Below are positions 8,897 through 53,068 of a stretch of DNA of 64,000 nucleotides, one piece after another. The stretch comes from Sipunculus nudus. Lineage: Eukaryota; Annelida; Sipuncula; Golfingiida; Sipunculidae. Location of the stretch: the NCBI GenBank assembly GCA_026874595.1, contig CM049320.1, forward strand, positions 20,593,714 to 20,657,713, read 5' to 3'. Position 1 is the stretch's first letter. Every line of letters starts with the position of its first letter. Under the pieces are notes generated by a model. That model saw nothing but the letters and a program-made list of their open reading frames with translations. It did no database searches and was not told the DNA's origin. A program made the translations under genes and the position numbers.

Positions 8897-10479
8897 TCAA
8901 ATATTTTCCACGTCAACAGAATAAAGCCCCACTGCCGCTCTATGGGGCTCGATAATACGAATGTTGATTGTGGAGTTCATTCGCTCAGATTTCTCAAGAT
9001 CCGTGTAACATGTGAATCCGCAGCGTGTGTGCTCTTCAGCCAAACGATTCTCAAAGCGACAACGCCGATAAAGGACCCCCCTTCCGTCTTCCTCGGTAGA
9101 CACTGGCCAGTAAACATACACGTTGTCACACCCGATGTCTCTTACATACACATTCACAAAGAGGTCGGGTAAAGGGAAAAGGTAGTCAAGCTGGACACTG
9201 AGAATTCCAGGAGGATGAGTAGGTACCTGGACGAATGTACCAGCCATGCTCCCCTCAGGAAACCAGGGGTCTCTGCCCATCACTGTAATGATTGGATCTG
9301 AAGATACATCATGTAAAAGGACTTCAGAAAAGAATAGATTTTCAATGTCATCAATTAATGGTAATCTGGCATAGGAGCATGACCAGAACATCATTTGCCA
9401 CGACAAAATTTATTTAATCAAAACAAGTTAAATGATTTGTAATCAAAAACTAAATAAAATAGCATAAAATTGATAATAAACTACTTAACAACCTCGTTTG
9501 ATGTGAACCAAAATGGCATTGGTTCTGCGCTCATGCCGGTTGTTGGTAACGGTATACCCTACAGGGAGGCCAGAATCATAGACAAGCTGTACATGAGTTG
9601 GTTCAGCCTTTAAGCCACAGCAGTCTCCAGTTGTCCGTGGAATGATATTAGCACCACTAGCATTCATACTGTGAACCCCAACCACCTGACCAACATGGGC
9701 CTCGTATCTCTCATCTTCGGGTATAGGGAATACCTTGAATCATATAAGCACTGAGTGTGATGTAATGTTTGTGAGTAATATGCACACTTTCAAGACATAT
9801 TATCACTGCTAGTATATTTGACTGGTATAAACTTTCGGAGTACTTAATAGAAGATAGTTAATAGATAATTTAAAAAGTTTATATCTATCAGATGTTACAC
9901 AGATCCAGACCCTGTGAGAAAAGTCATAGACAGGTATTAGATCAATATAACATATATAATATATACATATACTATTAATATAACGTACGCTTTACGTTTT
10001 AATGGCCATCTTATCTAGAACAGCGTTCATTGTGTTACATAACCCGTGATGATAAAACAAATCCTTATAATATTAACTTTGTCTTGAATTACTTGTTTGG
10101 TTTACATACGTTTTTAGGTATTTGGTAATATTACACTAAATCGACAATACTTCAGGGTTCTCTTTTGCTTTATATACAGTATAAAGATTTAGGAACATTC
10201 CAGGATAATGCAGTTAATGTTCTTTCTTCATAAAAAAACAGGGGGTACCTACCTGGCGGCCCACTGATGTAACTGTGATGTATGTTTTGTTATACAGACG
10301 GTATCTGTCTTGTCCAAGGTTATCCCAAAGGCTTAACACTGTCATCCCTGTCTTTTTTGCAACAAATTCCCAGGCTACGACTGTGCCGGACACATTAATA
10401 CCAACAGCGGGGAGAATGTTCAGACAGTTACCTTGTGTCTCTGGCAAGTCCCTGGCAGCGGTACCCGACTTGTAAATTA
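8897..10479 (-). CDS. Open copy B of the tandem secreted-protein gene family, last three exons
   Basis: Three exons on the minus strand: B 10,479-10,253 (227 bases), C 9,733-9,493 (241), D 9,297-8,897 (401, with stop). Acceptors TTTTACAG, ATTCAAG and TATCTTCAG and donors CAG/GTAGGT and GAG/GTTGTT give phases 1, 0 and 1 that join without a shift. The 288 complete codons form a first domain of about 155 residues (GTVVAWEF, LSLWDNLG, YNKTYITVTS, GQVVGVHSMN, GDCCGL), resembling the beta-sandwich repeats with a G-x-V-x-x-W-E-F and G-x-V-V-G core seen in invertebrate extracellular proteins, and a second of about 130 residues with four cysteines (IGCDN, YRRCRF, TRCGFTCY) ending in GLYSVDVENI. Four N-x-S/T sites (NVS, NKT, NAS, NST) fit the secretory pathway. 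The preceding exon, which must end in phase 1, was not found. Function unknown; adhesion or lectin-like binding is only a guess. Confidence 0.8.
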
Positions 10480-10499
10480 CTGTAAAACAAAGGTAGAAT

Positions 10500-11580
10500 T
10501 ATAAAATCGAAGTTATGACTCACTGTTATCATGACACATTTCCTAAATAGGACCATGTGATAGAACCGCTATAAAAGGACTATAACCGCTCCTATATTTG
10601 ATCTTATATTTCAATTACACGGTATTCCTTCTGAAGAGCATACAAAGCAAAAAAATATGCATAATTCCCTTATGAACAGCAAGCCATTCTTATCAAATGG
10701 TGTTTTCATCTGTATGATTTTTGTAATTATACTGTTATTGTTATGTCCAAAAGAAAGCTAACACCATATGTAGTGATGAGGATATAATATGATAAAAGTG
10801 TGAACCATATAATTATAAACCGACGTAAGCTTTAGTATTGCGCCAGATTTTCTAAAGTCCTGAAACATTTTAAAAGACAGTGTCATGTTCGGAAAACTAA
10901 ACTATGACAAGTTTAGATTTGATCAATATAAGAGATAGCCGCTTATACTTTCGAATTTCGAATACATCCTCTAAGAGTCGAGTGTCACCATCCCGTCGAT
11001 TTTGGATGTCATAGAATACAGGTCCTTTTAGGTATGTTAGTCTAGTACATATTCCATACCATGATTCTCCTATCGGATTTACGCAATTTTGGGATTATTC
11101 TGCTTACAAATGCTTATATGCTCCCTTTTTGTGGATCCCCCCCCCCCCTTATCATTGAACCCCTCCTCCTGCAATACTGAGTCTTTCTATAATGACTTGG
11201 GTAAAAGTCTCCTTTCCAAGCCCTGGTTCAGCCGTTTCTACTGGTCATAATAACCTATTTTGATACCTCTCGCTTTCCGGAAAGTTCACCGCTGGACGAC
11301 GGGATATTGTTACATGTTTTCTTTTAAACGACGGTTGATAGTAAGGGCCACACTAGTTAATTGTAAATTGGTTCTAATTTTAAATCCCTAATGAATATTT
11401 TGCTTGATTACATGAGACAAACTGACAAGCTGTTAGCCAAACATATAGTTTGTGCCCAGATAGTTTATTTAGACTGTTTTACCAGCAATATTTCTATATA
11501 TGGGTCTTATATCACAGAGAGTGGACTGTTTGATCGAACGAAGTGATACATCATTGGTCAGCTTTCTATTGAAATTAGAA
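10500..11580. other. Upstream flank or intron of copy B; no exon seen
   Basis: Searched on the minus strand for a short signal-peptide exon ending in phase 1 before a GT donor; none was convincing. A C-run lies at 11,140-11,149. The partner region is at 53,090-54,160. Confidence 0.4.
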
Positions 11581-11588
11581 AAAAACAG

Positions 11589-12136
11589 TGGTTTATTACA
11601 AAGGACTATTTGCCTCAAATGGAAACCTATCCTGGTCTTTCACCTGCCAGTATCGTTATTCGAGTGAGGATCAAGGACGCTGAGCCAGGTATTGCTTGTA
11701 AGGTGCCTTCTGAATCCTACCGTATCGTTCGAGCTATAAGGTGAGCCCCTGCATTTGTTAATCTATTATTGGGGAAAACATTCTCCAAAACCTTAACTAT
11801 TTTTGCCGTGTAAATGTTAGTATATTATTGAAGACTGTCATTATAAATACCATTAATAATCAAGGATAAGCCGAAGTTGCAATTGGAGTCACAATTTGAT
11901 CTTGTTTTCATACTCCATCTGATATCTCATGCCCATCCTATATCTGTAGATATAGAAACATATGTAGCAACGTGTATTTACTTATAAGAAAACAATGTCA
12001 GCTGGCTGTAATCGTTTTGACCAATCTAAGGACGGTCATTAGTTGGAATTTACTGTTTCTTTGCAGTATTGTATCCCTGGATAACCCACTCCCAATACAA
12101 AACCTGCTTGGCCGCATTACGAAGATACTATTATGA
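11589..12136 (+). other. Candidate two-exon coding segment on the plus strand, upstream of copy B
   Basis: A stretch 11,589-11,740 after an acceptor-like AAAACAG reads WFITKDYLPQMETYPG onward through IVIRVRIKDAEPG to YRIVRAI, ending at a strong donor AAG/GTGAGC in phase 2. The next strong acceptor, TTTCTTTGCAG at 12,066, continues in frame as SIVSLDNPLPIQNLLG and stops at 12,136. In the partner (54,165-54,700) one extra T shifts the first segment and an earlier stop shortens the second. No family recognised. Good splice sites and an open join argue for an exon pair; the partner's damage argues against a living gene. Confidence 0.25.
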
Positions 12137-13194
12137 TTCTTAAGTTAGGAGAAGATTTGGAATAATACACCCAGGTCAGACAAGGAAAGAAAGACTCTTC
12201 TCATCGGAAAAATTATAAATCTGGACAAATATTAAGTATGTACACTGAAAGTAAACTGCCGGATATATAAGTGAGCAGCCAGGCCTTGTGTGCCAGTCGC
12301 CTAGTTACTTTTTTTTTTTCATTTAAGCATTTTAGGATATGTGTATATAAATAAGGAGACAAGTCAATATGACAGAGCGTGTACAAAACATACGTTACAT
12401 CCATTTTACTTTATTTTGTCGTTTCTGTCATAATGGTGTAAACGGTTAGGTCATTTTCCATGGAGAAAGAAACAGGCTGAAACTCAAACTTACACTCTAA
12501 AAGACAAATAAGTTACGAGTAAACAAGACAAATAAATATTTATATATATATTAAAAAAGAATGCACTCACACATCTCTGGAGAGGCGCTCAATATATATA
12601 AACACTGATCACAAGCGTTCAATAAGAACACAAAATCTCTAAGAATTTTTAAGTGAAAGCATAAAGCCAGGTTTTGACATGATAAGTAATAGTGCAGTGC
12701 CCTTACCAGTGCATATGGATAATCATAAGTAAGCTGTGTTATACAGAGAGGCCAAGGAGGCAGAAATAATGAAAGAAATACCATTGTGAAAGTATGTGTG
12801 GTGTGGGACTTGATCAAGTATCATTAGTTCGCTCGGGGCCATTCCGAAAGAGGATGGAACAATAAGACACATTCATGACTGAAGTCTGCCTGCAGACAGG
12901 GCTGTCAATGATTATGCTGAATAAGAGTATCAGGCTAAGTTCAAAACAGTTGATCATGCAGCTAAACTGGTCACAACAGGCTAAAGTGAATCTTAAATCT
13001 GCGTATCTTTCAGTTAGGATTTCTGATAGAGATATTTAGTCATAAAATAACCTGACTTTCTTTAACTGATTTGAATGGTTTAACTAGTTATTTCTATGAC
13101 ACTACACTACCGTTTGGTGCAAGGCAGGCGCCCGTAATTTTTAACCGTTTAACACAAGCATTGACAAGATTTATTATTTATCAAGGGTTATAGG

Positions 13195-14312
13195 GGAATC
13201 TATATATAATAAATATCAGCAATGTATTACCATAGAGATAGAATTTATTCTATCTTCATATTATTAATATCCAAGTAAATCCCCATCCTGATTAACCTAG
13301 TCTTGAGAATTTGCTTTGAATGTGCCCCCTCCCCCTCATGACAGACTGTATTATGTCTGAGTGGTCCGCATGCTATCTCTGTACAAAATGTCCTGTGAGT
13401 TGAGATTCAGGTTCCTTGTCACTGATATTTTTGTGTCAGATTGGTCAGCATACTGTACAGGCAGGCCAAATCAGCTCAACTCAGCAGTACATAACCATGA
13501 GTATTCCACATAAAATTGAGCATTGAGACAGGGATTTTCAGCAAGAAAGTGAACGTTAGTCAGCAATCTAATTTGGAGTATCATGTGAATCAGCCCTGTT
13601 CTTGAGGATGTACATGTCAAGGTGAATCTGTAAAGACTGGCCTACACGGAGTTATTTCTCCGTACAGCCGGAAGATGATACAGCTGATGAAAGACATGGA
13701 GACGGGGTATAAAGATAATGGGGAGTTCAGTGTGTGTCAGTGATCAAGACCAATGTGAAAACTGCCTTTCGCGGCATTTGGTGTGTGACAACTAACCTGC
13801 CACACACCTGCTTGGACAAATGAAAATGCTTAAGATAACAGGAATAAAGCAAATTATTTTCATTCTGAAACTTGTAAGGATATTTATTTTTTTTACTTAA
13901 TCAACATGAAGCAACAAAACCCCCCTGAGAGGAATACATTCATATGACCAGGCTGAGCACATGGCTCCATTTATGTTTACTATTCATAGGCTCCACCCTG
14001 TTTATCCATGTGACTTAGTCATGTGACTTATACCGGCAAATTCAAAATGGGTATTACCACTGACTGTTGTTTATTCTCTCATATATTACAACAAACAGGT
14101 GAGGAGTTGAGTGTTTTTACTTAGCTCATTTTATTCACAATACATTAATCTTTACCTCAGACAAAAACTGGATGTATACAGATTGTTTTAAACTTAATAA
14201 CTCCAAAATTGTGTAAAAATCTGCCTGAGCTCTGTACTGCAAGCACAGACCACCCCCACTGATGGTGGGCTCCCATTGGGCCCTTTATATACCCAGCGTT
14301 CCCCTTTAAGAT
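13195..14312. mobile_element. 1.1-kb insert in the DIRS-like RT, candidate non-autonomous DNA transposon
   Basis: Absent from the partner, where the sequence runs on from the equivalent of 13,190 to that of 14,313. The ends look like short inverted repeats, AGGGGAATC at the left and GTTCCCCT at the right, next to TTA-like bases on either side. No transposase frame is present. About 19 bases of target appear to be lost at the right junction, so the exact ends are uncertain. Confidence 0.4.
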
Positions 14313-14910
14313 GATTTTTTTTAAATTATTTCTGACAACAAATGTGATAGTGCCTTGGGTATGTACACTTTGGTTGGAATACTTAGGAAGCTTTGGTTTA
14401 TGATTGGATGGAATAAGATAGTTTGACCTTGCCAGTGTTTAACTTTTCTTGGGATTAATATAGATGCATTAAAATGTGTTTAAGTTTGCCAGCGGATAAA
14501 CTCAGCAGCATAAGAGAGGAGCTGGTGAGTGCGTTTGTCATTGAAGCGTATGACAAAACGCCAATTGCAAAGTCTTATCGGTTAACTTACTAATCAACAT
14601 ATGTAGTCAGAGGCGGGCGAGTATTTCTCCGGAAACGTATTAATACTGTTACCATGATGAAGAACAAAATTGATCCGCGGCTGATAGACCATCAAATGAG
14701 AAGTGATATTCATCGATGGTATAATTGGAACATCTATTTTAACGGGTTTGCATTTATTTTTCATTATAAACCTATACTGGGGGGTTTACACGGATGCCTG
14801 TAATCAGGGATGTGCCGGAGTTTTGGCACAGACTGGTACTACTGCAGCTGGGCATTGGAATTACCAACATGTACTAATTTACATATTTTAATGCCAAAGA
14901 GACGCTAGCA

Positions 14911-15174
14911 GTGATTATAACAGCCTACAGATATGCATCACTGTGGCGTAATAGACGTGTCATAATAATGTCGGATAACAAAACAACTGTCTCAAACATT
15001 AACAGCGGTGTAACTAGGAAAAATATGGTTATGACTGCCCTGAGGGGCTTATTTTGGTTGTCAGTGTTGTTTACTTTTCATTTGACTGCAACTCATATAG
15101 AAGGCAAGGTTAACAAGGTCGCGGATTGTTTATTACACCTACATGATCCAGTCTATTCCCGGTGCATGTTATAA
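14911..15174 (+). pseudogene. RNase H domain of the DIRS-like element, copy 1
   Basis: The longest still-open piece of the element. It holds the second half of the RNase H fold: a helix with ITAYRYASLWRNRRVI, the acidic MSDNKTTVSNIN box, and the ATHIEGKVNKVADCL segment with its histidine and aspartate. The first acidic motif, YTDACNQG, lies just upstream at about 14,780 in a frame that ends at 14,891. Confidence 0.7.
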
Positions 15175-15199
15175 TAGGAATTTTACCTTGAACTGTTTC

Positions 15200-17720
15200 C
15201 TTTAACTTATCATATGTCACTTAGGTTTATGTGTAAGTTTTGTTGCTGTAAGCCAACAGCCAAGGTACAATTTCCTTCAGGAGCTAGCTGGAGTCTAATT
15301 CAATTCGACCGAATGTGGATTCTCTTTACATCCCAGATGAATAGACCAAAGTGGATTTATTGTTTAGCTTGCTTCATTTGCTCAGCGGAGGGGTTAGGAG
15401 GGGGATGTCACCTTATTATCATTATATTCAATTATGTTTAAGTTTTACATTGTGGAAAGTATGGTCCTCTATACCTAGCTAGTGACAGTAAATATTTCTT
15501 TCTACGTCCCGTCAGAAATATCCAAGGATGCGTTCACCAATTATTTAAATGAATTATTATTAATAGACAGGATGTGGCAATTATTTTTGTCAAAATAATT
15601 GAGAAGCTGTTGATCATAATTTTACATTCGGGAGGTGTTGATATAACTTTTATTTATTTTCACCCACAAAACATCCATTGTAGGTTGATGCAGGTAAACG
15701 AGAACCCACACTATTACACATAACTCTTTGTGATAAAAACATACCTATCTGCTCATTTTTAATCTGACTATATTCAATTTTGCATAGGTTTTACAGGAAA
15801 TTATGGTCTCTTTTACCATGGTAGTTAAAGTAAACATTTCTGTGTACATTACGGTAGAAGCATCCTCATATATGTTCACCAATTATTTAGAGGAATTATT
15901 TATTATCAATAGACAGGATGTGGCAATTGATTTTTCAAAAGATTTGCTAGGTTGTTGATTGTAGTTTTACATTGAGGCTGTGTTGATATAACGGTAAATC
16001 GTTATCGTCCACACAACATCACTTGTAGGTTGAGGAAGGTACAGGGAGAAGCACACTGTTGCAAAAAGCTCCATGTCTAATAAAAATGTCTATCGACTTA
16101 ATTAATTTGACTTATGGACCAATAAAATGAATATTAAAAATATCTTAATATGTTTGTTGTTAGCTACATCCATACACATTAAGAAAAACCCCAAAAGGCA
16201 TAATTATAACTAGGATTTGTATTCAGCAAACATCATGTCTTATAGCATTACATTTACACAATGGCATATTACACATGATCAAATTGTTAACCTCTAAAAC
16301 CCAATTTATTACACCTTCTCTACTTGGTCATAGTTCAAAAGAACTGCGTTCACCGGAATTTAGTTTCCTATTTTTATTAATAACCGGAACAATTCCACCT
16401 CCCTGCGAGTGACAAAGTAGGCGAAATAATATGAAGGCAAGTCAAGCCATACAAAAACGAAAGGCAATACGCTATAATAAGTCGCTCTAGCGACCTTAAC
16501 AGCATTACACAAAACATTAATGATTGAGCAGCCGAGCAGTCAGGGGAAGTGGAGGTAGCGATGTATGGGAAAATGCTATTAGTGTGAGTGAAAACAACAG
16601 CGGCAGATGAGAGGGCTCCATGAATCACAGTCGCAAATAGCACATTTTTGCTAGCCAAAAAAGGGAGGGGGCAAGAAGTTTTATAGCAGGAGCAACGGGT
16701 GTTATATCTGTCGCCAGGAGCAGTGGAGATCACAGCGAGCGAGGAGAGGGCCTCACTGAATAGATTCAGAACCTTCCTGAAATCTCCAAGGACGTTGGAA
16801 AATGAAAGTATGTTTCCGATACCAGTACATCCTTAACATACAGGGATTGATTAACAGACTAAAGTATGTAGTAGAAGACAACAAACCTTCCTCTGGAATC
16901 TCATTATGAGCCAAGTGTTCATATGTAAACACTCACGGGCTTCAGTAATATGGGTTCAAAATATGTAATGGTGATTTTTTCACATTATAAATATGAACCC
17001 GGGACACTGCTTAACAGAAGAGCGCCATATACGTGAATTATTTTGCAACTTCTTACAAAGACATTATTATTAATATTAATCATATATTATTTTATATAGA
17101 ATACGTGACACGACAATAAAGACACGACAATAATATTCCCGCATGCTTTGCACTTATTGGTATGATAACTTACCAAAATACGCACATGCGCCATGATTCG
17201 GATGACTTTTTGACAATTTAAATTAATTGATTAACAGTTTGTTCTGACATTTAATTAAATCAATGATTAAACTTAGCACATTAATAACTATTATTGTCAT
17301 GTTGTTTTCAAACATTTCGTTAAAATAATATGCAGCCATTTCGTTTGCATTTGAAATGGAGACATCAGTCAGGTCAGATATGTTTGTAATAAGCTATTTT
17401 TAAAAGAGGACGATCTAAAAAATCTTTTCCAAAACCGTTTCATAATGAAAATGAACATATACTTATTTCAAACAAATAGAATAAACAAATATGATCACTC
17501 ATGTCTCTGGTATGAATCAATGTTTCTAACGATTAATTTAAAAATAATACTTTTATTACTTTAAAATCGAAACATGAGAATAAAACGGCGGTGCTACGCC
17601 GGTCAAGGATGTTAACGTGTCGTTCTATTACATCGTTACCAGTGTATTGCCATTGATTTGTTTGATGGGAATCGCTAGAGCATGACATAGAGCGTGTTAC
17701 ACGTGTTCACTACATAAACA
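15200..17720. repeat. Member of an old repeat family (also 22,400-25,000, 32,330-35,800, 58,500-60,980)
   Basis: Shared, diverged blocks occur in the same order in all copies, for example GTCTAATTC with ATAGACCA near the start, CACCAATTATT blocks, a GCAGCC block near 16,530 and a TAAGCTATTT block near 17,390. The first 850 bases also repeat internally: 15,440-15,730 resembles 15,790-16,060. No gene seen. Confidence 0.7.
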
Positions 17721-18750
17721 ATGGTGGTCTACCCTTATGTGATGTATCCTCGCGACAGCTTGCTTGCTAAAGTCACAGGATTTTTTTTGGTGAATTCCCA
17801 ACTGCTGTTCTCGCTTTACTGATAATGGAGACACACATGTATAATATATAGGAGGAAACACTTACAACGGTTAACATGATATATCCTGGTAAGGGATAAC
17901 TATGGCGCCACAATCACAATAAAAAATATAGAAGCGTAATATTTTTTGCATGTCGATAGAGTAAGTATTACAATGGAAAATTTACTAGGATATATGTGTC
18001 TTACTTAATCGACATTCTGATCAATATTAGTTTGTAAAAAAATTTACATTAAGTTACACAGCTGGGTTGCATTTGAATTAATTGTCATAAAAGGACCTTT
18101 GCCAAACAAAATATATGTTATTATTTAAACTCTAATGTTTATGGGTAAATAAAAAGCTCCGTGGGAAGATTATATATTCGACTTTTTATGGCAATTCTAA
18201 TCAAGTAATACCACGCAAACTTGCGTGCAGACATAAGAGTTGCTTACACAAGAATTCCTCATCTGGTGCTATTGCATACGGTTTTTTGCTTGCTGCAAAA
18301 CAATTTAACCTGATGTGAAATAAATGAAATAATTTATAAACACATAGGCCTCTCAGAGAATTGTAATTAAAAGAAAGACTTGAATCAGAGCGTTAGCTTT
18401 TAATTTCAATTTTAAGTTTAAATTATAATGTTTGACATTCTAAGATGAAATTAATAAAAATACTGGGATAAGGTAGATAAAAGACTTATTTAACAGATTT
18501 ATATATGTGATCAGACTGCATGTGATATAAATGAATTTCCTCAAATTGACTGGTCCATCTGATTTGCTTTTTTTTTTTTTTGCTTTGGTGTGAAATAACG
18601 GTATATCGAAATATTTGTCTACGTAAATAAATCGATAGAATTATCGATGGTTTTGGCTAGACTCATTCTTTGACTGACGTCCCTGATATTCGTGTAAAAA
18701 GAAGCGCACTGTTCTTATTTCGCTGAATCGTGCTAACGTTGGTACCGGGA
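17720..18750. other. Non-coding repeat DNA, no gene seen
   Basis: AT-rich, without a supported frame, duplicated at 60,980-62,010. Confidence 0.5.
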
Positions 18751-18751
18751 G

Positions 18752-18753
<2 letters not shown>

Positions 18754-18819
<66 letters not shown>
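18754..18819. repeat. (TA)n microsatellite
   Basis: About 33 TA units after GGGAGCCAA. The duplicated tract at 62,014-62,057 has about 22 units and follows the same flank, showing length change since duplication. Confidence 0.95.
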
Positions 18820-18825
<6 letters not shown>

Positions 18826-19675
18826 TCTTTCTGTGCATCAAAAGCGACCTGTATAACTATGGTCTGAAGATATGATGACATTTCATTAATTTCGTATACC
18901 CTAGTTTTCAAATTAGTAATATATTTTACATCACATTATTGCAAAATTTAATGTTTCATATAATAATATGCGTCCATATGGCTTAATTCCGGTTCTTGCA
19001 TTTTGTCGTCATATGATTTGTTAAAGTTTCACTGTCTCGGGGGTGGGGGGGAAGCAATATTGGTAAAAATAACAGGGAAATTAAAAAAAAATCAAATAAA
19101 AGTTTTTAAGAAAAAATACTTGGGGGGGGGGGGGGCAAACGTCCCTGAGAACCCTCCACCTCTCAGCCCTACCCCTTAGATCCACAGCTAGTTGTTTTTG
19201 AGTTCTTAAAATCTGCAGGAATTATTTAATATTTGCTTTAATACCTGGGTATCATAATATCATGAGAATGAACAAATCATGTCACATTCCTAATCATCGT
19301 TTTAAATTTAGTTATTTCTGAACGGTTACACTTAATTTTTATTTGCGGAAACGTTTACACATTTTTGTAAATGATTCCTATTAACAGATTGAAATCAGAG
19401 CCTATATTTATTGTAAAAAAATATTCTTTTATACGACAATTTGGGATTGGGGTCTTTTTCAGGCCTCTTAAGTTGGAAAATGAAATTGACTTTTGAATAT
19501 AATGTCGGCAAAATATATGATTAGGGAAACGAAGCTTACGACAGATCAGCTGTCACTGGTCCTATCTTCGCTCTCAATGCGGCAATTGAACGTGCAGAAT
19601 TCATAATCTGTACTTAAGGTCATTTGAAGAGTACGTTAAATAATTCAGCTAATATATTAATAAAGATAATAGCTA
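18820..19675. other. Non-coding, two G-runs, no gene seen
   Basis: Contains a G-rich stretch near 19,039-19,050 and a run of 14 G at 19,122-19,135; otherwise AT-rich and duplicated at 62,060-62,935. Confidence 0.5.
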
Positions 19676-21151
19676 CGGCCCATGCGGCTTGAAAACAGAA
19701 GGCAGGTTAGTGGAAGGAAATATAAGTTACTATGTCAAACCAGAAATAAGAAGTTGCAATAGTCACTAACAATAAAATCACTATTTTAAATGGTTTTATA
19801 TAGATCCTCTAATCACCATAATTTTCAAGATGCAAACTGAGTTGTTAATCAGGTCATCAAAGTTTAAAGTTTTTTAGTGGACCAACACACAATCTATTAG
19901 GCCCATCTGATTCTTCAAACTGGGAAGAACTGATCTGATCTCTAGTTCAGTATCAGTTGTACTTTTACGTTAAGATGTGGCTTTGGCGCTGTTTTAACCT
20001 ATCACATCTGTTAAGTAACTGTTAGATTTTTAGAATGTCAGATAAAGTAAATAATTCCACCGGATGTTCACCATTAACGTTTCACCTTTGATGGGACATT
20101 GTGGCTTTTGAACGAACACTTCCTGAAAGTACCCACTTCTCACCCAACTACATAGAGATATATTCGACAAATAAATGAACACTATACTTTACAATGATAT
20201 GTACAATACTTATACATTATATCAATAATTAAGGGTTTTATTCATCTATTATCATAGGAAATGTAATATAAATGTCTTTACAACAACTGCTGTAAATATA
20301 ATTTAGTGATAACCAATAACACAAACATACACACATAAATATACATATATAACTAATAAACCAATATAAAAAAGATCATGTCATTTATAAGGGATGCCAA
20401 ATTTTATTCCTAACATAACTGGAGCGGGCATGAAAATGTCTATGTGAACACCTGATGATATTTTTGACATTGTGCGTTCTTCTAACTGTTTATAAGACTC
20501 TCACTTTAATACATTCACCTACATAAATATATATAAATAAACAATAATTTTATGCGGGGAGGAATTTAATTTGACTACAGCAATCGAGAAAATAAATAGA
20601 TAGGTGGTATGCTTTTGTAAATATCATTGATCGGTGAAGGGTGATTTTCCCTCCTCTCATTGAGGGTATCCCCGTGTCTGCTTACAGAAAATTAGCTGCA
20701 TTGATTGCCACTCAAATGAAAAGTCTGACCAGTGATTCAATGATCTTGACACGCTGCAAAGAAGCTGCACGCATACGACTGGGTGATCGTTAACCCTGCA
20801 TCATCTTCCATACAGGAAACTTTATATAAATGAAAATATATCAGTTTAGAAAATAACAAAACGGAATGTCAGGTTTCTGTAGTATTTATGTTCCCCCTCA
20901 GATTCCATTTTCATTTATTTTCGTTTTAGCATATGTAAGAGCTTCAATGTTTATATGGTCAGAAAAGCTACTCATTTGACAACGCTTTATTGGAGACTGC
21001 AAATTTTCCACAGAGGTATGATATAATTTCCGCCTCCTTGATATCGAAAAAGTGTAAGGGTAGACCTAATTTCACTGAAATATAGTGCCTCCTAATCAAT
21101 CTATGAACCTAACTAGAGAAAGTTATGTATTTAATATTATATAATATTTAA

Positions 21152-22243: not shown

Positions 22244-22399
22244 CAGTGTGGTATTCTTAGTAGTTGCAGAGCTGTAAGTATAGTGTCTATTAACTGCAGA
22301 CCTCGATGTTGAGTATAATCAATGATCATCCGTAAAATTTCTTTAATTTTTCCTCACCAGTTAGAGGCTATAAAAACATCCATATTAATCTCCCAGTTT

Positions 22400-36660: not shown

Positions 36661-36679
36661 CACCAACAAGGTTACAATC

Positions 36680-37075: not shown

Positions 37076-37079
37076 TATT

Positions 37080-38629: not shown

Positions 38630-38633
<4 letters not shown>

Positions 38634-38686: not shown

Positions 38687-38688
<2 letters not shown>

Positions 38689-38689
38689 G

Positions 38690-40925: not shown

Positions 40926-40929
40926 TAAT

Positions 40930-41166: not shown

Positions 41167-41228
<62 letters not shown>

Positions 41229-41975: not shown

Positions 41976-42259
41976 TGACATTTAATCTATGTCTGTAAAT
42001 ATTGTAAACCTTAAACTTATTATCACATGAAACAATGGACAATTTTAAAGGCAAACGTATAAAAATAACTTCTATTCGCTTTTAAAAAGAAATTAAAAAG
42101 TTATCTGAAAATATAAGAAATGTCACCTCAATTCTGTGACCTTCAGTCCATAGACAATATATTCGCTGTCACAACAAGTTGTCAAAACCTATTTAGGAGT
42201 TAGGGCGACATTGGCATATAATATTACGTAATTATACATATGTTGCCCTAATTTAAGCC

Positions 42260-44840
42260 TTTTGGCTTTATGTACATGGCAAAGTTATTCAAAGCTTCAT
42301 CTTGTGTTGACGTGGGAAATAACATTAAGTTCCCTGATTCTCGTTTCGGCGATGTACAAATAAATTGAGGAAGAATGTACAAGAAATACTTACATGATCA
42401 CACATTTATTGTAGTTTGGGATAGCTGATTGCATCATATTAAATGAAATCAAAAAGCCGGCGACCATACCGTGTCGTCGTGTATGTTTGTTTGCCGTCTC
42501 TCCACATTTTTTCTAAGACATTCCAAAGGACAGGGTCTTCAAACTTTGTCAGTATTGACCATTATTCACTTCTTCCTACCCATTGTCTACAGGAAGCCTT
42601 GGAGAACATTATGAACTGTAAAGGTGTGTGCTTATTTATTAGAAAGCTTGATGCTAACGCTATCTACCTAAACCCCATAACTTTTCTAATTGCCTCTCAG
42701 GGTCGGTAGGCTGCCAGCCGGGAAGGGTCCTATAACTGTTTACGGCAGACTTGGGATAAAACCCCGGCAGGAAATAAAAAGAAATTGGCATATAGGGTGA
42801 AGAACCTGTTAAATATGACAATAATTCATATTTCATCACATTTTTCATTTAAAAAATATGCAATATGGAAATTACTTATTTATAACTATCATTCATTTGA
42901 TGAAGAAGTTAAGATAAATAATTTCACAGGAAAATGAGGTATGTTCCTTTTATTTCAATCAATATTTACTACTGTTTGTTCTTTTCAATAATACAAAACA
43001 GTATATTTATGTTTTTTCTTGAAAGTAAAATACAAGATGAAATAGGAACACCTTTCAGTTAAGCATAAGATCTCATTTTTGTTGTTAAAATCATTCCCAG
43101 TACTAATAAATCCGTGCAGTTTTAAAAAATCTGCACTTATTTGAAATATAAAACATATATCAAAATATACTCCAATAAATATATGCATAACTGTCGTTAA
43201 TTGTTCACTTTTTAATCACGTGTGCATCCAGTGCACATCAGCTTTTATCCGCTTTACAGTGTTTCAAGGCTCCGTTCAAGTAAAACCGGTGATCACTCCG
43301 AAGCTAAAATATTTACGATGCCAAGAGAATAAAACCTCACTGCCTCTCCATGAGGCTGAAAGATACGGATATTGATTGTAGACTTCATTCGCTCAGAGTT
43401 GTCAAAGTCCGAGAAGCAAGAGAATCCACAGTGTGTGTGCTCTCAAAATGGTTCTCTAAGCGACACAGCCGGTAAAGGACTCCTCTTCCTTCTTCTTCAG
43501 CATATATTGGCCAGTAAACATAGACATGGTCACACCCAGTGTCTCTTACAGACACATTCACAGAGAGGTCGGGCAGAGGGTAAAAAAGGTAGTCAAGATG
43601 AACACTGAGTATTCCAGGAGGATGAAAAGGTACCTGGACAAATGTACGAGACAGGCTACCCTCAGGAAATCTGGGATCTCTCTCAATAAGTTTAATGATT
43701 GGACCTGATGAAAACTCATGTTAAAGGATTTCAGATAAAATAGATTTGTATAGTATTTAATTAACGTGTAAACCGGCATGATCAGAACATTTGCCATAAA
43801 AAAAATATATCAACGAAAAAAGTTTAATGATTATCAATACAAAATTGAACAAAATAGCAATTAGTTGATAATAAACTACTTAATAACATCGTTTGAGTTT
43901 AACCAAAATGGCCTTTGTTCCTCACTTTAGCCGGTTTTTCGTCACGACATACCCTTAATTGAGGCCAAAGTCACAGACAAGCTGTACATGACAAGGTTCA
44001 GCCTTAAGAACACAGCAGGCCCCACTTGTGCGTGGAACTATACCGACACCATTAATATGACCGACACTGGCTTCGTATTTCTCATTTTCGAGTATCGTAA
44101 ACACCTTGAAACATATATATATATCAGGCTAATAGTGCTACACTGGTTATCTATAATCCTCACACTTTCAAAACATACTGTAACTGGAAATATATTTAAA
44201 TGATATTTTGTATTATTTACATAAGCAACATTTAACATAATAAAACAAATTAATTAATTTATATTAATTTTTCTTATATTTTATATTTTTATACAAAGAT
44301 ACATATCAGATAATCATTAGATGTTAACAATTACGTGAGGTTAACGTTTTAATTACCAATTAATCTGACAGATAATTCTACATTAGGTCACATATTAAAA
44401 TAAAATAAAATCCTTAGGATTTAAACCTTGTTGCAAAGCACTTGTGTGGTTGACAAAAAGGTTAAAGGAATTGGGTGATATTACATTATAGAAACAATAC
44501 TTTTATTGTGGTTTGCTTTATACAGGGCATTCAGGTTTATATTCTTTCTTCATTCAAATAAAATAGAGGATTCCTACCTGACGGCCCACAGATGTGACTG
44601 TGATATATGATTTGTTGTACAGACGGTATCTGTCTTGTCCTAGGTTATCCCGCAGGCTTAATACTATCTTCCCTGTCTTTTTGGCAACAAATTCCCGGGC
44701 TACGACTGTGCCGGACACATTAATACCAACAGAGGGGAGAATATTCAGATAGTTGCCTTATGTCTCTGGCAGATCCCTGGCAGCGGTAACTGACTTGTAA
44801 ATAACAATATAACAAAGGTAGATTTATTAAGTAGGAAATT
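42260..44840 (+). repeat. Older duplicate of the gene-bearing block (partner 7,920-10,500)
   Basis: Clearly diverged from 7,920-10,500 and its young partner, and closer to 1-910 where they overlap (43,846-44,840). Carries the pseudogene C. Confidence 0.8.
43308..44804 (-). pseudogene. Decayed copy C of the tandem secreted-protein gene family
   Basis: All three exons are visible on the minus strand: B 44,804-44,578, C 44,103-43,888, D 43,704-43,308. Exon B reads VIYKSVTAARDLPET, then a TAA replaces a glutamine codon, and the rest (GTVVAREFVAKKTGK) is open; its acceptor AG has become TG. Exon C keeps NEKYEASVGH and PRTSGACCVLKAEP but has two stops. Exon D keeps FVQVPFHPPGILSV and GCDHVYVYWP, then loses four bases after LENH and shifts. 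The donor of exon B is intact, the one of exon C is altered (CGAT/GTTA). The copy cannot make the family protein. Confidence 0.85.
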
Positions 44841-44854
44841 CGACCCAGAAAGTT

Positions 44855-47555
44855 GAAATAACTTTAACTGAAATCAAATGATCAATCAATGACAAGATTT
44901 CTAACCATATAATACGATATTTAAACAAATATATAAGATATGAATTCTTTATAACCATTACAAATTTAATAATGTAATGTCGCTTGTAAACGCTCCAAAC
45001 TCAGAACAAACTTTTACGACATTTTGGCCTTAGATTGTTCAAAAATCAGTCACATATCCGAATAAATAAAGCAATTTTTTAGTGCAATTGCTAAAACAAA
45101 TCATTTAGGCTTTTGCCCGGTAAAAGCCATTCAGCGACTCAGTCGTTTGTCACACAATACACCGTGTATAGAGCGCACCATAAAGATCTTTCACATTGAA
45201 GAGGCACGTGTGTAGACAAATGTATTATTACTAAATAATGTCTTACCAAAAGTAGCTGCGTGTTATATTTATTCTCCTCGGCCTAGAGCAAAGCATTTTT
45301 TTCTGCAAAGGAAATTATGTTCACATAATGTTTCTAAATGATATTCAATTATCTGGGGAAATTAATTTTTCTCCTCGGACCTATATCATTATTTTTTATT
45401 CCTGTGTATGGTGTTCCTGTTCGGCTCATCAAGTGCTTGCAAAGTATTTTTCCCGACAGTGGATATTCGTTTCTTATATCCACATTTTTCCATCCAGACA
45501 CGTATGTAAACTACGTTTGAACGTTTGTTTAGAATGTTCTTGTGTTTAGCACGTATGTTGGCCAGTTCCTTGCCTCCTTAGAAGTTGTAGCTGACTGATA
45601 ATTTCATCAAGGTCTTAGATTTGTTGATTTTATGATACATGTGACTGTAAACCTATCCTGTTTGTCTGTCAGGCTTAAAAGATGTATTGATATTTCTGTT
45701 ATTTATAGGCTTATGCTGATTAACGTCAAGAGAGAGGGTGCAGTGATCAGGATAACTTGTATCTAGCTAAAAGAGATCTCTGGTCACCGTATCACCTATC
45801 AAACAAAAAACACATCTATTGGGGAAATATTTTTTTATCCCGACGTCAAACTTATGGTTTCATGCACACCCTACTTGGGTAAAGTTAATAAATAGGTCTT
45901 CTTTCGCCTAATGAAAATATCATTATTTCAGCAACGCGTTTTCGTGACAAGATAGATATATAAGAAATGAACAAATGCTTCACAAATTTCAGTCCTTAAT
46001 AAGACCATCGTCAATGTATGAATTACTTGTTGGAATAAACAAATTTCCGGCAAATATTATCTTTCGTAAACCAATATTCAACATATTCAACAGGCCGCTC
46101 AAATCTGGGAAGTATCATATATAAGTATTGTAATGTAATGCTTAGCGTCAGCTGTTTTGTAATTTTCTCCTATGTGTTGTGGAACATAAAATGTATGCAA
46201 GTAAAGTGTTCTGGCAGAACAAGCACATTATGCTATATATGGACAGTGGATCAATGTATTTCTGGAAGAATATGGTCACAGTAATAGTTACAATGAGGCG
46301 AAAAGGGTTTCTACTAGGTATTGCTGCAATAATCCTGTACATAATAGATGGCCGATTGTAACTGCTGGCTCAAGTGAAAGAGGTGGGCTCAGAAACTATT
46401 GTTGCAGTTATTGTATCTCTTATGTAGAGGACACCACTGTCTCATAACATAGGCTACGACTAGGTAAGGTTACGGAAAGGAATCTATAGTCAAGTACCCG
46501 ATTTTTTATTATCATTTAGTAAAAGGGATATGCAGAGAAGGGTGAATATAACTGTATATCTTTGTGAATAAAGTCAAGTTTACAACTGTATATAGAAAAC
46601 TTAAAATATATATCACCAAGCTAGTCGAAGGGCGTTAAATCGTGGCATTTTGTTAACTCACACCTGCTTAAAAAAACTTGGTATTTGTAGCTCCGAAACA
46701 CCGTATGTGGGACCATGAATGGTCCCGAGATCAGTATCATAAGGTTATTCCACAGAAACTCTCAGGTAAGGTTAATAAAAAATAAGAATTACATGATATC
46801 TTTAAAAAAGTATTTCTTTCTTCTTCTGTCTACTATTGTTTAAATTTCCACGGGTTATGTATTTTCTATCTTTTAACTGACTTCATTCAATACGAGTTTA
46901 AAATGTTATATGCGTCATTCACGACTTCACCTAAAATTTACATGATTTTGCCAATAAATGGAGATGATTCTTGAAATATATATTTTTGTTTTGTTTCAAA
47001 TGATTGTATTAGTAGTTATAATGATCAAAACTCCTTCCATGACTCGGATGCTGACGTGCTTTCTGTAGGGGTGAATGCAGTCTGTAGGGGTGAATGAATC
47101 CAGAAGACTGGAAGAACCACCAACATTAGTTCGGCCACTCTCGAAGCCAAGTCGGAAATCGAAATCGGGTTGGAAGCTGAGACAGCCGAGTGTATAAGAT
47201 ACTGAATGTGATATTCAATCCTATACTTTAATATTTAAATAGATCCGAGTCTATGTTAGATAATGTGACAGATAAAAAGTGTGATATTATTTCTTTATAG
47301 TAACCGATTTACAAATGTGTCAGGCCAATATGTCCATACCCAGTTAGTATATTACATACAATGGTCAACTTGCTAGAACTTTCAGTTGCAATATAGCCTG
47401 CATGCTTAACCTGAGATGAATATCGATCGCTCAAGTTGATAAGAGTCAGCAGAGGTAATATTATCTCCCGCCTGTGCTTCAAACCCCATTACGTTATTGA
47501 TAAAACTAAGTGGCCGTGCATAAATATGTGACAAGCGAGCTTGCAACACTATATT
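44855..47555 (+). repeat. Segmental duplicate of 3,690-7,035
   Basis: Collinear with the first copy, lacking about 400 bases (equivalent of 3,903-4,302) and about 270 bases (equivalent of 4,915-5,185). It ends where Penelope-like element 2 is inserted. No gene seen. Confidence 0.85.
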
Positions 47556-47557
47556 GA

Positions 47558-47690
47558 TTCACTGTAAAATAAGTAACCCAAGGGAATAATATGACAAAGG
47601 TTTCTTTTGCGACATCATGAAAAATTCACTTTAAAATAAATGACCCAAGGGAATAACATGACAAGGGTGTCTGTTGCAACATAATAACAA
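47558..47690. repeat. Two-unit tandem repeat, about 69 bases each
   Basis: TTCACTGTAAAATAAGTAAC begins the first unit and TTCACTTTAAAATAAATGAC the second, each followed by CCAAGGGAATAA and ATGACAA. Confidence 0.85.
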
Positions 47691-47867
47691 CCTATATGAA
47701 GCAAACATAACAGAGAGAGAGAAAAAAACATTGAAAAAGGAATATTGATATTCTGTAGGGAGTTTGTGTGTCTAACAGTTACACTTTTGAAAATAAAAAC
47801 ATTAACCCAGCAGGTAACAGCAAAAAATCACAAATGGTTTGACTAGTTTGAGAAAAACATGTTTCCT

Positions 47868-47990
47868 TGCTCAAATAGGTCAAATATTAACCATATTCAA
47901 CATATAAATTGCAATAGGTCAAACTGTTAACAAAGTGAAAAATTGTTACCTCTAATAGGTCAAAATGTTAACAAAATGTCAAATGTTAAT
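47868..47990. repeat. Short repeats of the type AATAGGTCAAAnTGTTAAC
   Basis: At least three imperfect copies at about 47,872, 47,912 and 47,956, plus a partial one near 47,978. Each contains AGGTCA, the half-site bound by many nuclear receptors; at this spacing and within a transposon I regard that as coincidence. Confidence 0.6.
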
Positions 47991-48295
47991 TTCCAGTATA
48001 AACCCAGGGTAAAGATTGGGTGGTCCGGAGAAATATAATGAAAATTGACAAATATGGTATGATACTTATAAAACAATAATAATATAAGGTAGTCAGTATG
48101 GACGTGTACAAGATATTTTTCACCAGTGTCCGTAGAAATATATATAAATATATCTCACTTTCTGTTATTCTCTCAGTATTATCTTTAGGCTACTCTCGAT
48201 ATTGCGTGACACAATGGACTGCTAATTTGACCTTATTAATTTCAACTGTTTAACTAAAGTATGGAACTAGAAAACACAGAAAAGCCGATTATATA

Positions 48296-48312
48296 TGTGT
48301 GTGTGTGTGTGT
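48296..48312. repeat. (GT)n microsatellite
   Basis: Eight to nine GT units. Confidence 0.9.
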
Positions 48313-48599
48313 CACAGTCAGTCTGTGAAATCAATCATTTCATGAAAATTGCTAAACAAATTTTAGAAAAATTGTAGGTGGTAGAAAAAACAGGGTCCGC
48401 TGTTAGAAGGGGTTGTTACCTCTGTGCAACTCTCCTTAAATGCTTGAGATGTGGGTGCTTAGTTACGATCAGTGGTGTTCGGTTATTTTTTCGGAGTTTT
48501 CTTTCATACATTTTCACGTGGAATGTTGGTGGCTTTGGTTATATGTTTATCTATGTTATGTCGTTTGTATCCCTTGTTGATGAATACCTTCTTTAGTTT

Positions 48600-49210
48600 G
48601 AGGAGTTGTTGTGATATTTCTTACAGCTTGACTATAAATGATTGATATGCCGACAAAGGGTGGATGGTAGCTTGGTAGATGCGAACAGTTGTGACGATCA
48701 GTACGCTTACGGTAAAGTGAAGTCTGGATATTTCCGTCGGCTAGTTTAATCGTTGTGTCCAGAAAATTGATTGTGAAATTCTAAAAGTTTATTCTCGCCG
48801 TGGTGCCAAATTATAAATATGTCGTCAATGTATATTGTATAAATTAGTGTTTTAAGAGATTGATTAGCCAAGAAATCTTGCTCCAAGGTAATCATGGAGC
48901 AATTAGCATACTGTAGTGCAATACGCGTACCAATAGCTGTGCCCTTTATTTGCAGATACATATTTTCTTCGAATTCAAAATTATTGGATGTAAGGATAAA
49001 TTCAGCCAAATCAGTACTGATATCCGGTGTTATATCATTATGTTTATTATTATAAATTAGGAGTTTCTTGCATGCCTTGAGGCCATCCACGTGAGGTGTA
49101 TTGGTGTATAAACTATTGTCATCAAAAGTTACCAAAATACTGTCTTCTGGAATATTGTTGATCATGTTAATTTTGTTAAGAAAATTGATAGTATCGCGGA
49201 AATAGCTATA
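48600..49210 (-). pseudogene. Reverse transcriptase remnant of Penelope-like element 2
   Basis: Minus-strand frame 49,165-48,746 reads LVTFDDNSLYTNTPH (motif A, with a DDNS variant where relatives have DVxS), then YLQIKGTAIGTRIALQYAN (motif B) and IYIDDIFIIWHHGENKL (motif C). Upstream, RDTINFLNKIN is in frame but a stop follows just before it; downstream a shift leads to LADGNIQTSLYRKRTDRHN and YHPPFVGISIIYSQAVR. Order and wording fit a Penelope-like RT palm and thumb. Shifts and stops make it inactive. Confidence 0.85.
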
Positions 49211-50244
49211 ATAATTTTAAATGATAGGCTTTAGATTGGTTTCACAAATCCAAAAATAAGTTCAGTAAGAGTTCCTTTACAGTAAAATAAATAGGTTTGC
49301 GTGGATTTTTTTTCTTATGGATTGTTGGGAACGTGTAGAATATGTTTGTTTTTGGGTTTTAAGGTATGTACTTAAAACGTTCCAGTTGGATGTGTTTTGG
49401 AAAAATTATCATGATTATTTGTTCCCATTCTTTTAAGAATTTTTCAGTTGTATCTCGGTCTATTTTTCTGTAATGTTTTTATCATTTTTTAAAGGACCGT
49501 TTGTGGCATTCGACAGTCGACATGGTTTGGGACTATTATTCGAAATGGCGCGCTGTACCATGCACGGAGGGCTGCATTTTGGACCGAGCGACTCTTCGTC
49601 ATAATGTGGATGAGGTCGACCTTCGCGTAATTCCCGAGACGTACTGCTCTGTACCGAGCCCAAACAAGGCACCATTGTCATAAGAATACTAAGTATCCAA
49701 TCAGAATGTAAATACACTGTTTCTGGCAGTTATGGACTTTACACATTGTCATTTCACCAATTACAAACTTAACAGTACAGAAGTTTGGTGAAATCCGAGT
49801 TGCTATTTGCGGCAGCATGTCGTGTCAGGAATACCGAGTTCACTCTGTTTACGACACAGATGTCAACGCAAAAACGATTTTCCCATCACTGCATCATCTT
49901 TTTCTGATTCCAGTTTTCTTTGGAAACATGTTTTGGTGACGGCCGTCCTCGAACGCTGTGGCATTCTGACACTTTTCCGGCGGCACAGAAACACAGAGAG
50001 TGATAAGGGTTTTTATCCAAGGACCACGTGCCTCATTGGCTTTAAGATGGTGGATGAACTAGGCGTGACCTGAAAAATGCTAGTCAAAAGGGAAAACAAA
50101 AGTTGGCCTTGCACAACAAACAAATATTTTAGATCACGCATTATCAGCCTGGTTTATCCCTTTGATTACAAAGGGACTCGCAGATATGATTTTTTTCCAT
50201 AGACTTTCACGTATCCTGATTGCAGGTATCAGGTGCAGTTATTC

Positions 50245-50396
50245 TGGGTCCGTTGCCGCAAGTTAGGGTCAGGTACCGCTAGTCGGCGCCCTGTGCCGCC
50301 AGTCGAGGTCCAATGCCACCAGTCAGGTCAGGTACAGCTAATCGATTCTCGTGCCGCCAGTCGGAGTTAAGTGCCACAAGTCAGGATCGACTACCT
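50245..50396. repeat. GC-rich minisatellite, partner of 7,650-7,805
   Basis: The same run of about seven degenerate 21-base units, GTGCCGCCAGTCGAGGTC and variants; unit number is the same as in the partner, with point changes only. Confidence 0.85.
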
Positions 50397-51487
50397 TGCA
50401 ACGAACTTTTAAACTTGATTTTTGTTTCAACATCTCTGTCAAGTCATATAATTAAGGAAATTCATATGGTTACCGTATCTCAGGATCTCTACTTCACTTA
50501 TGCCTAATGGCTTTATATAAATCGCCAAGTAATTCAAAGCAACATCTTGTGCTAGCGCGTGAATTATTATTAAGTATGCACAAGAAATTGTCACATGAAC
50601 ACAGAGCTATTGTAGTTTGGGATAGTAAATTGCGTCATATTAAATCAAATCAAACAGCCGGCGACCAAAGCCCTATCATCGTGTATGTTTTTTTTGCCGT
50701 CTCTCCGTAGATTTTTTTAAAAAATCCTTAAAGGTAAAGTCTTCAAACTTTGTCAACAGAATAGAAACCTATTAATTTCTATGCGCCCATGGTCAGCAGG
50801 AGGCGTTGAAATGGAAAGATGTGTGTTTATTTTTTGAAAACGTGACACTAACTCTATCTACCGGAAACCCCTAATTTTTCTAATTGTCTGTCAGAGTCGG
50901 CATCCTGCTCTTGGGGAAGGACCTTCTGCCCTGAAGACGGCAGAATTAAGAAAAAAAACGGTAAAAAATGGCATTTGAGGGGAAAATACTACTTAATTTG
51001 CATAGAATGCAAATTGCAATCCAATGTATTATTTAAATAATAATACAAAGCAACTTTATATTTCTTTATACCCATCTTACATTTGATGTACAAATTGAGA
51101 AATATTATTTAACATGAAACTGATTTACGTCCCTCTAATTGCACCTGTTATTTACCACGGCCTGTTGTTTACAACAATACAAAATTGTAAATTTATCAGT
51201 TTTATTGACAGTAAAGTACAACATTTAATAGGCACACCTCTAAGTTAAGCATAGGATTTCATTGTTGTAGTTCAGTTTATTTCAAGCGCAAAAAATACAA
51301 GCATTCTGTAGAACCTGCACATTTGAAATATACAATATACATAAGAATAAAATATGTATAAATGTGTGTATATAATTGTCATGCATGTCGTCCGTTATCT
51401 CGTTTGCATGCAGTGCATATCAGCTTTCTGACATTTTCAATGGTTTCAGGGTATTTTTTCAAGAAGGAACAGTGATCACTCTGAAGC

Positions 51488-53068
51488 TCAAATATTTCCC
51501 ACGTCAACAGAATAAAGCCCCACTGCCGCTCTATAGGGCTCGATAATACGAATGTTGATTGTGGAGTTCATTCGCTCAGATTTCTCAAGATCCGTGTAAC
51601 ATGTGAATCCGCAGCGTGTGTGCTCTTCAGTCAAACGATTCTCAAAGCGACAACGCCGATAAAGGACCCCCCTTCCGTCGTCCTCGGTAGACACTGGCCA
51701 GTAAACATACACGTTGTCACACCCGGTGTCTCTTACATAGACATTCACAAAGAGGTCGGGCAGAAGGAAAAGGTAGTCAAGCTGGACACTGAGTATTCCA
51801 GGAGGATGAGTAGGTACCTGGACGAATGTACCGGCCATGCTCCCTTCAGGAAACCAGGGGTCTCTGCCCATCACTGTAATGATTGGATCTGAAGATACAT
51901 CATGTAAAAGGACTTCAGAAAAGAATAGATTTGCAATGTCATCAATTAATGGTAATCTGGCATAGGAACATGACCAGAACATCATTTGCCACGACAACAT
52001 TTATTTAATCAAAACAAGTTAAATGATTTGTAATAAAAAACTAAATAAAATAGCATAAAATTGATAATAAACTACTTAACAACCTCGTTTGATGTGAACC
52101 AAAATGGCATTGGTTCTGCGCTCTTGCCGGTTGTTGGTAACGGTATACCCTACAGGGAGACCAGAATCATAGACAAGCTGTACATGATTTGGTTTAGCCT
52201 TTAAGCCACAGCAGTCTCCAGTTGTCCGTGCAATGATACCAGCACCACTAGCATTCATACTGTGAACCCCAACCACCTGACCAACATGGGCCTCGTATCT
52301 CTCATCCTCGGGTATAGAGAATACCTTGAATCATATAAGCAATGAGTGTGATGTAATGTTTGTGAGTAATATGCACACTTTCAAGACATTATCACTGCTA
52401 GTATATTTGACTGGTATAAACTTTCGGAGTACTTAATAGAAGATAGCTAATAGATAATTTAAAAAGTTTATATCTATCAGATGTTACACAGATCCAGACC
52501 CTGTGAAAAAAGTCATAGACAGGTATTAGATCAATATAACATATATAATATATACATATACTATTAATATAACGTACGCTTTACGTTATAATAGCCATCT
52601 TATCTAGAACAACGTTCATCGTGTTACATAACCCGTGGCGATTAAACAAATCCTTATAAAAATTTTACTTTGTCTTGAATTACTTGTTTGGTTTACATAC
52701 ATTTTTAGGTATTTGGTAATATTACACTAAATCGACAATACTTTAGGGTTCTCTTTTCCTTTATATACAGTATAAAGATTTAGGAACATTCCAGGATAAT
52801 GCAGTAAATGTTCTTTCTTCATAAAAAAAGAGGATACCTACCTGGCGGCCCACTGATGTAACTGTGATGTATGTTTTGTTATACAGACGGTAATTGTCTT
52901 GTCCAAGGTTGTCCCAAAGGCTTAACACTGTCATCCCTGTCTTTTTTGCAACAAATTCCCAGGCTACGACTGTGCCGGACACATTTATACCAACAGCGGG
53001 GAGTATGTTCAGATAGTCGCCTTGTGATTCCGGCAAATCCCTGGCAGCGGTACCAGATTTGTAAATTA
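51488..53068 (-). CDS. Open copy D of the tandem secreted-protein gene family, last three exons
   Basis: Exons B 53,068-52,842 (227 bases), C 52,324-52,084 (241) and D 51,888-51,488 (401, with stop) have the same splice sites and phases as copy B, and no stop or shift interrupts the join. By hand count the 288-residue product differs from copy B at about 15 positions: for instance PESQGDY against PETQGNC in exon B, which removes a cysteine, GIIA against NIIP in exon C and DTGC against DIGC in exon D. All four N-x-S/T sites and the four cysteines of the second domain are kept. In exon D I count six replacement and six silent changes, which at the usual ratio of sites suggests moderate constraint. 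The signal-peptide exon was not found, as in copy B. Probably a recent functional duplicate; role unknown. Confidence 0.8.

Follow-up and report, generated by a model that had tools for sequence, protein, structure and literature searches.

The region analysed here is a window of 64,000 nucleotides from Sipunculus nudus (C15:20,593,714-20,657,713 of the 1.43-Gb assembly in 153 contigs), which was studied together with the flanks C15:20,400,001-20,600,000 and 20,657,714-20,663,713 and which carries four copies of a gene family that probably encodes secreted glycoproteins. The copies, all of them on the minus strand, are referred to as c1 (1-877), c2 (8,897-10,479), c3 (43,308-44,804) and c4 (51,488-53,068), and their exons are given in Table 1. 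A first-pass annotation of the window had read them as two open and two broken genes on one strand, and this was borne out: c2 and c4 each consist of three exons (A, B and C) with GT/AG boundaries and a stop-free translation of exactly 288 residues, and c1 and c3 carry lesions. The two open proteins are 94% identical, and in both of them the four N-x-S/T sites that had been pointed out are kept, as are the last domain's four cysteines. Splice phases and intron lengths are also kept in c2 and c4, as claimed, but they do not represent independent evidence, because the introns are near-identical from one recent duplication (96.5% identity for the intron between exons A and B, 97.9% for the one between B and C). 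Moreover, 288 residues is the correct length for the three exons but not for the product, from which the first coding exon was missing; the complete open models including this exon have 308-311 residues (n=6).

Table 1. Coordinates of exons and duplication arms in the window (positions of the window unless stated otherwise).
Feature	Position	Strand	Basis or remark
c2 first coding exon (MYLLDILLVFMELHITYSTK + 1 base, phase-1 donor)	22464..22524	-	lies ~12 kb upstream of exon A; other copies have an exon of this class
c2 exon A, first half of domain 1	10253..10479	-	open frame
c2 exon B, second half of domain 1	9493..9733	-	open frame
c2 exon C, domain 2 with four cysteines and stop codon	8897..9297	-	open frame
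Spare first exon of the c2 type (MYLLDILFVLMKLHITYSTK), alternative first exon for c2	32349..32409	-	in sub-repeat
c4 first coding exon	L029:611-671 (~64,611-64,671 in window coordinates, just beyond the window)	-	matches c2 exon
c4 exon A	52842..53068	-	open frame
c4 exon B	52084..52324	-	open frame
c4 exon C and stop codon	51488..51888	-	open frame
c1 first coding exon (MTVLVPFLVTMAIQMSCSME)	3990..4050	-	match to family exon 1
c1 exon A, two stops (codons 18, 48)	657..877	-	lesion scan
c1 exon B, 24-bp in-frame deletion and 1-bp frameshift	43..258	-	lesion scan
c3 exon A, one stop (A15)	44578..44804	-	lesion scan
c3 exon B, two stops (B58, B69) and 24-bp in-frame deletion	43888..44104	-	lesion scan
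c3 exon C, 4-bp frameshift	43308..43704	-	lesion scan
Left arm of ~43-kb tandem segmental duplication	1..20746		pairs with right arm
Right arm of ~43-kb tandem segmental duplication	43846..63949		pairs with left arm

An array of four copies, as first described, is the correct count for the window, but the window is only one end of a far larger array, in which probing with exons A, B and C revealed 15 main copies at 20.41-20.65 Mb. Six copies are open through all exons (20416k, 20442k, 20519k, 20549k, c2 and c4) and nine are broken (20455k, 20460k, 20479k, 20488k, 20509k, 20539k, 20565k, c1 and c3). This count leaves out diverged or single-exon fragments, e.g., those near 20426k, 20452k, 20466k, 20475k and 20495k; three uncounted fragments, near 20472k, 20502k and 20533k, lie on the opposite strand. 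A protein search of the whole genome resulted in at least 118 exon-level matches at E<=0.01, located in the main array and at 20.68 Mb, C15 18.36-18.91 Mb, C15 3.53-3.56 Mb and C7 61.12-61.15 Mb; isolated weak matches lie on C12, C13 and C3. Diverged relatives form three further clusters, two of them elsewhere on C15 and one on C7, and places with exon A, picked by hand from the match list, number 31 in total (17 at 20.41-20.68 Mb, 9 at 18.4-18.9 Mb, 2 at 3.5 Mb and 3 on C7).

The two ends of the window are the arms of a tandem segmental duplication (Table 1), with an identity of 80-97% in 500-bp bins and with private insertions, and c1/c3 and c2/c4 are therefore pairs originating from one duplication of ~43 kb. 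The split between type A (c1/c3) and type B (c2/c4) is older, the identity of the A-B intron across this split being 72% (c2 vs c3). In a tree built from exons A and C of the 15 copies together with L030 and L031, a B-type clade (c2, c4, 20460k, 20549k, 20488k and 20519k) and an A-type clade (20442k, 20479k, 20509k, 20539k, c1 and c3) were recovered, each with a support of 0.97; 20455k and 20565k are placed on the A side (support 0.82-0.83) and 20416k falls outside both clades. A and B copies alternate along the chromosome in five units, i.e., 20479k/20488k, 20509k/20519k, 20539k/20549k, c1/c2 and c3/c4, leaving 20416k, 20442k, 20455k, 20460k and 20565k outside the units. Within the units the A copy is broken in five of five cases and the B copy is open in four of five, the exception being 20488k. 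Outside the units, the A copy 20442k is open and the B copy 20460k broken. Furthermore, the array holds a near-identical block with 98.3% identity over 23.8 kb.

The copies c1 and c3 have no stop or frameshift in common and share the 24-bp in-frame deletion in exon B; c1 is cut by the window edge, and its exon C, which also contains a stop, lies ~140-530 bp further to the left. A stop (A51) and two frameshifts (B70 and C68) are common to the A copies 20479k, 20509k and 20539k, which were therefore dead before their units multiplied. The B copy 20488k is without exon B. Indels at codon 1 of exon C, like those at the exon-B ends of three A copies, are artefacts of how the sequences were cut and are left out of the lesion count.

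Selection was addressed by a test on open reading frames (ORFs) that does not assume any exons and that covered 238 comparisons between window repeats (frames of at least 40 codons with at least 6 differences), in which the same ORF can recur against several partners. Ranked by synonymous excess, the first four places are taken by exons A, A, C and B of the family; the strength of the test lies in these four ranks together, because the best single p value of 2.2e-4 becomes about 0.05 after correction by a factor of 238. With the NG86 method, the c2/c4 comparison resulted in a nonsynonymous divergence (dN) of 0.028, a synonymous divergence (dS) of 0.089 and a dN/dS ratio (omega) of 0.31 (Fisher p=8e-4), with omega values of 0.16 for exon A, 1.09 for exon B and 0.29 for exon C. 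Across the 15 pairs of the six open models omega is 0.20-0.54 overall without exception, dS being saturated in a few single-exon cells of the pairwise table. These values indicate that the open copies are under purifying selection, and they do not support fast adaptive change; the original description of the family as quickly changing is thus unsupported in the adaptive sense.

Moreover, nonsynonymous and synonymous changes (N:S) were assigned to branches using the gap-free codons of exons A and B, with two complex sites excluded. Changes confined to c1/c3 amount to 30 N (27 N and 3 stops) to 9 S, which equals the neutral ratio, and the fixed differences between A and B amount to 23:21 (p=0.024 vs the 30:9 of c1/c3). 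The differences between c2 and c4 over all exons, 18 N:17 S, depart from the neutral expectation (p=0.001); they divide into 5N:5S for c2 and 10N:11S for c4, with 3N:1S unassignable, and both open copies look constrained after the duplication.

The first coding exon was sought by a scan upstream of all copies followed by a search with the peptides so found. A family-wide exon of 20 codons and one base (~61 bp), resembling a signal peptide and ending in a phase-1 donor, is located upstream of 13 of the 15 main copies; for 20455k and c3 no such exon was found by the upstream scan or the peptide search of the array. Its GT donor is present in all six open copies, and the four deviating first exons (20510k and 20567k with 'at' for 'gt', 20541k shifted by one base and c1 with an altered last exon base) all belong to broken genes. 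The exon of c1 sits in 3,918-4,291, a stretch missing from the unit of c3. In c2 and c4 the first exons are identical at 61 of 61 bases and the surrounding 401 bp are 94% identical, a difference expected by chance with a probability of 0.02. A proximal class of exon 1 is found upstream of 20442k, 20460k, 20479k, 20488k, 20509k, 20519k, 20539k, 20565k and c1; 20549k, c2 and c4 have only a distal class, 6-12 kb away, and the proximal sequences are unmatched there. Since 20549k is the sister of the proximal-class copies 20488k/20519k in exons A and C (support 0.98-0.99), recombination between exon 1 and exon A would be the simplest reading of its distal exon 1.

The sub-repeat carrying the distal first exon is itself multiplied (20063-25465, 30891-35438 and 63137-68237 in extended coordinates, with about 75-92% identity). 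Another signal-peptide candidate at 13,797-13,863 (MKIICFIP..., phase-1 donor), the only ATG in the window that passed the scan, was rejected, because it lies in a 1.12-kb insert missing from the other unit and inside a reverse-transcriptase-like stretch, and because it has no good match in the remaining part of the array that was searched, where a different exon 1 is common to 13 of 15 copies. This insert (13190-14309), present in the left unit only, has short inverted ends (AGGGGAA, judged by eye), a TATA-like box and the signal-peptide-like open stretch; it interrupts a reverse-transcriptase-like element, whose counterpart in the right unit is without the insert.

A hit to a named family had been set beforehand as the result that would speak against an unnamed family, and none was obtained in Pfam, NCBIfam or the PDB sequences. 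No match above cut-off was found in Pfam for eight members and two further sequences, nor in NCBIfam, nor in PHROGs for the three exons of c2, nor among PDB sequences by single and profile search; no relative was detected in collections of viral contigs and prokaryote genome contigs, and five peptide strings of the family do not occur in the literature text searched. Among the eight members, Pfam matches at E<=1 comprise five families, none of which is fibrinogen, C1q, C-type lectin or Ig. DUF4082 (PF13313), the only lead of note, matched domain 1 of the distant member L030, one of the eight, with E 0.064 and 13.7 bits vs a cut-off of 28.4; this is at noise level, given that Ras matched L030 with E 0.062, and membership was rejected on this evidence. 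A Ras/Roc GTPase was equally rejected (12-14.4 bits vs gathering cut-offs of 21.6/27), the PDB alignments to Ras/Roc resting on a short WDxxGQxRxR-like stretch that was taken as chance, as were the matches to Rab, subtilisin, bleomycin hydrolase and nsp4.

The cysteines 233, 256, 269 and 273 (c2 numbering) of domain 2 are present in all six open array models; the CxFxC motif is nevertheless not fully invariant, since L030 has lost its final cysteine. A further pair, 198/302, is jointly present in 20416k, L030, L031 and L034, and the five remaining array models have neither of the two; this suggests a disulphide that was lost once. The two-domain layout proposed at the outset fits exon layout and conservation and is plausible on these grounds, but the AlphaFold2 prediction of exon C (four window sequences), with a mean predicted local distance difference test score of 40.3, gives it no confirmation. 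As a guess, both domains may be beta-rich, with disulphides formed among cysteines 233, 256, 269 and 273 and, in older members, between 198 and 302.

Taken together, the data are best explained by a multigene family of ~309-residue secreted glycoproteins that was amplified in blocks, of which the B genes were kept and the A genes lost; we give this explanation a probability of roughly 0.6. The product would consist of a signal peptide of ~20 residues, which has a phase-1 exon to itself, a domain 1 encoded by exons A and B, and a domain 2 with cysteines encoded by exon C, with splicing from exon 1 to exon A, secretion, N-glycosylation and disulphide formation all predicted from the sequence. 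The array would have grown as blocks of either ~30 or ~43 kb, each containing one A-type and one B-type gene, were duplicated in tandem, presumably by unequal crossing over; the B genes would mostly have been retained by purifying selection, while the A genes would have lost constraint and become broken in every unit. In birth-and-death multigene families, genes are duplicated in tandem and some copies decay while others are maintained, and the first-pass annotation rightly placed the unnamed family among them: it has tandem paralogues (n=15) with broken copies interspersed among intact ones (9/15), lineage-wise grouping without homogenisation and constraint on the intact copies (15/15 open pairs). 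It differs from them in that amplification proceeds by blocks of two genes, A and B, of which the A gene is broken in five of five units. Invertebrate families of secreted recognition proteins that have expanded and bear named domains include FREPs, C1q-domain proteins and C-type lectins; the array family resembles them in its signal-peptide-like start, N-glycosylation motifs and tandem expansion and differs in that none of their defining Pfam domains is among the matches of the eight members at E<=1.

Several observations weigh against this explanation in part. The signal peptide was judged by a hydropathy scan and conservation only, either of two exons (at 22,524 and 32,409) could be the first one of c2, and some branches of the array are modestly supported (0.785-0.827). 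In c2/c4 the omega of 1.09 for exon B, based on few changes, exceeds unity, the 14:10 differences in exons A and B do not depart significantly from the 30:9 of c1/c3 (p=0.16), and dN is not below the intron divergence of ~0.03, because of which the constraint on this pair rests on synonymous excess. Furthermore, c1 and c3 share a Trp-to-Arg exchange at a residue that is invariant in eight of eight aligned members, and together with the shared deletion this suggests that their ancestor may already have been impaired.

With respect to function, an extracellular binding or adhesive protein, kept for dosage over diversity, is the most likely role, albeit weakly so; the recognition or adhesion role put forward originally is putative. 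A protein that acts in mucus or haemolymph by recognition or lectin-like binding is possible, though we would not call it probable, and a role in a structural or secretory matrix is equally conceivable. The latter would make the protein a bulk component of mucus, shell, byssus or egg coat, with copy number selected for amount, an explanation for the whole family that may well be considered and yet falls short of being the probable one: it agrees with purifying selection in all open pairs, with the few amino-acid differences between close copies and with the near-identical 23.8-kb block, whereas the six models are without evident low-complexity or repeat composition (by eye) and dosage alone does not need the diverged clusters. 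Adaptive diversification of a recognition family in an arms race with changing targets is unlikely. The tandem array with its many broken copies and several diverged clusters speaks for it, as does the signal-peptide exon, whose omega, based on a very small number of sites, reaches 1.27-1.34 in four of the 15 pairs; yet omega of the whole protein is below 1 in every open pair, and the sole higher value beyond the signal peptide is the 1.09 for exon B of c2/c4.

It was also considered that the open copies are dead relics as well and are open by chance, given that the adjoining copies are broken and that dN of c2/c4 about equals the intron divergence. This is improbable, since the 18N:17S of c2/c4 departs from neutrality while the changes private to c1/c3 match it, and since splice sites and first exons are kept, the latter without a single difference between c2 and c4. 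Even more improbable is an assembly artefact in which two haplotypes were set in tandem to give all or some of the blocks. Some blocks are indeed close to each other (98.3%, and 93-97% across much of the two units of the window), but there are five differently spaced A-B units (~30 and ~43 kb), stretches in which identity falls to 80-90%, private insertions and deletions and unit copies on their own branches of the tree.

Returning to the block-amplified family of secreted glycoproteins, a more specific version of it can be put forward only tentatively and is rather unlikely in full, namely that the linked A-B pair is the amplification unit of an undescribed animal family of secreted two-domain proteins, in which A was lost repeatedly (at least two lesion sets), B was kept and first exons were exchanged among the B genes. 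If true, the exchange of first exons would give near-identical proteins new promoters and sites of expression. The analysis provides complete gene models, including the missing signal-peptide-like exon, for a family absent from the profile libraries searched. Moreover, the five A-B blocks represent a natural experiment, since one gene of the pair was mostly retained and its partner lost; expression and population data could thus tell whether dosage, an expression switch or recognition caused the amplification.

Finally, some further features of the region were noted. Identity between the two units of the window falls to 80-90% at 11501-16500 vs about 54100-59700, with 92-97% on either side, and this dip could be due to gene conversion or to independent histories of inserted elements. 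On the plus strand, 11589-11741 is an exon-like open stretch (WFITKDYLPQMETYPGL...RIVRAIR) between AG and GT, the frame of which is shifted in the duplicate near 54,170-54,320; it has no family in Pfam (best DUF7743, E 0.29), and an overlapping minus-strand frame at 11643-11762 is rank 5 of 238 in the synonymous-excess test (8N:10S). In the gap between units, a direct repeat of 1.8 kb (C15:20571315-20573107 and 20578453-20580245, 99.8% identical, 7.1 kb apart) is present, perhaps constituting the terminal repeats of a recent element. Two stretches on the minus strand are related to reverse transcriptases and are taken by us to be Penelope-like: 2105-3305, between exon A and exon 1 of c1 in sequence that the other unit lacks, has no RVT_1 match, and 48746-49216 has a weak RVT_1 match (E 0.005).

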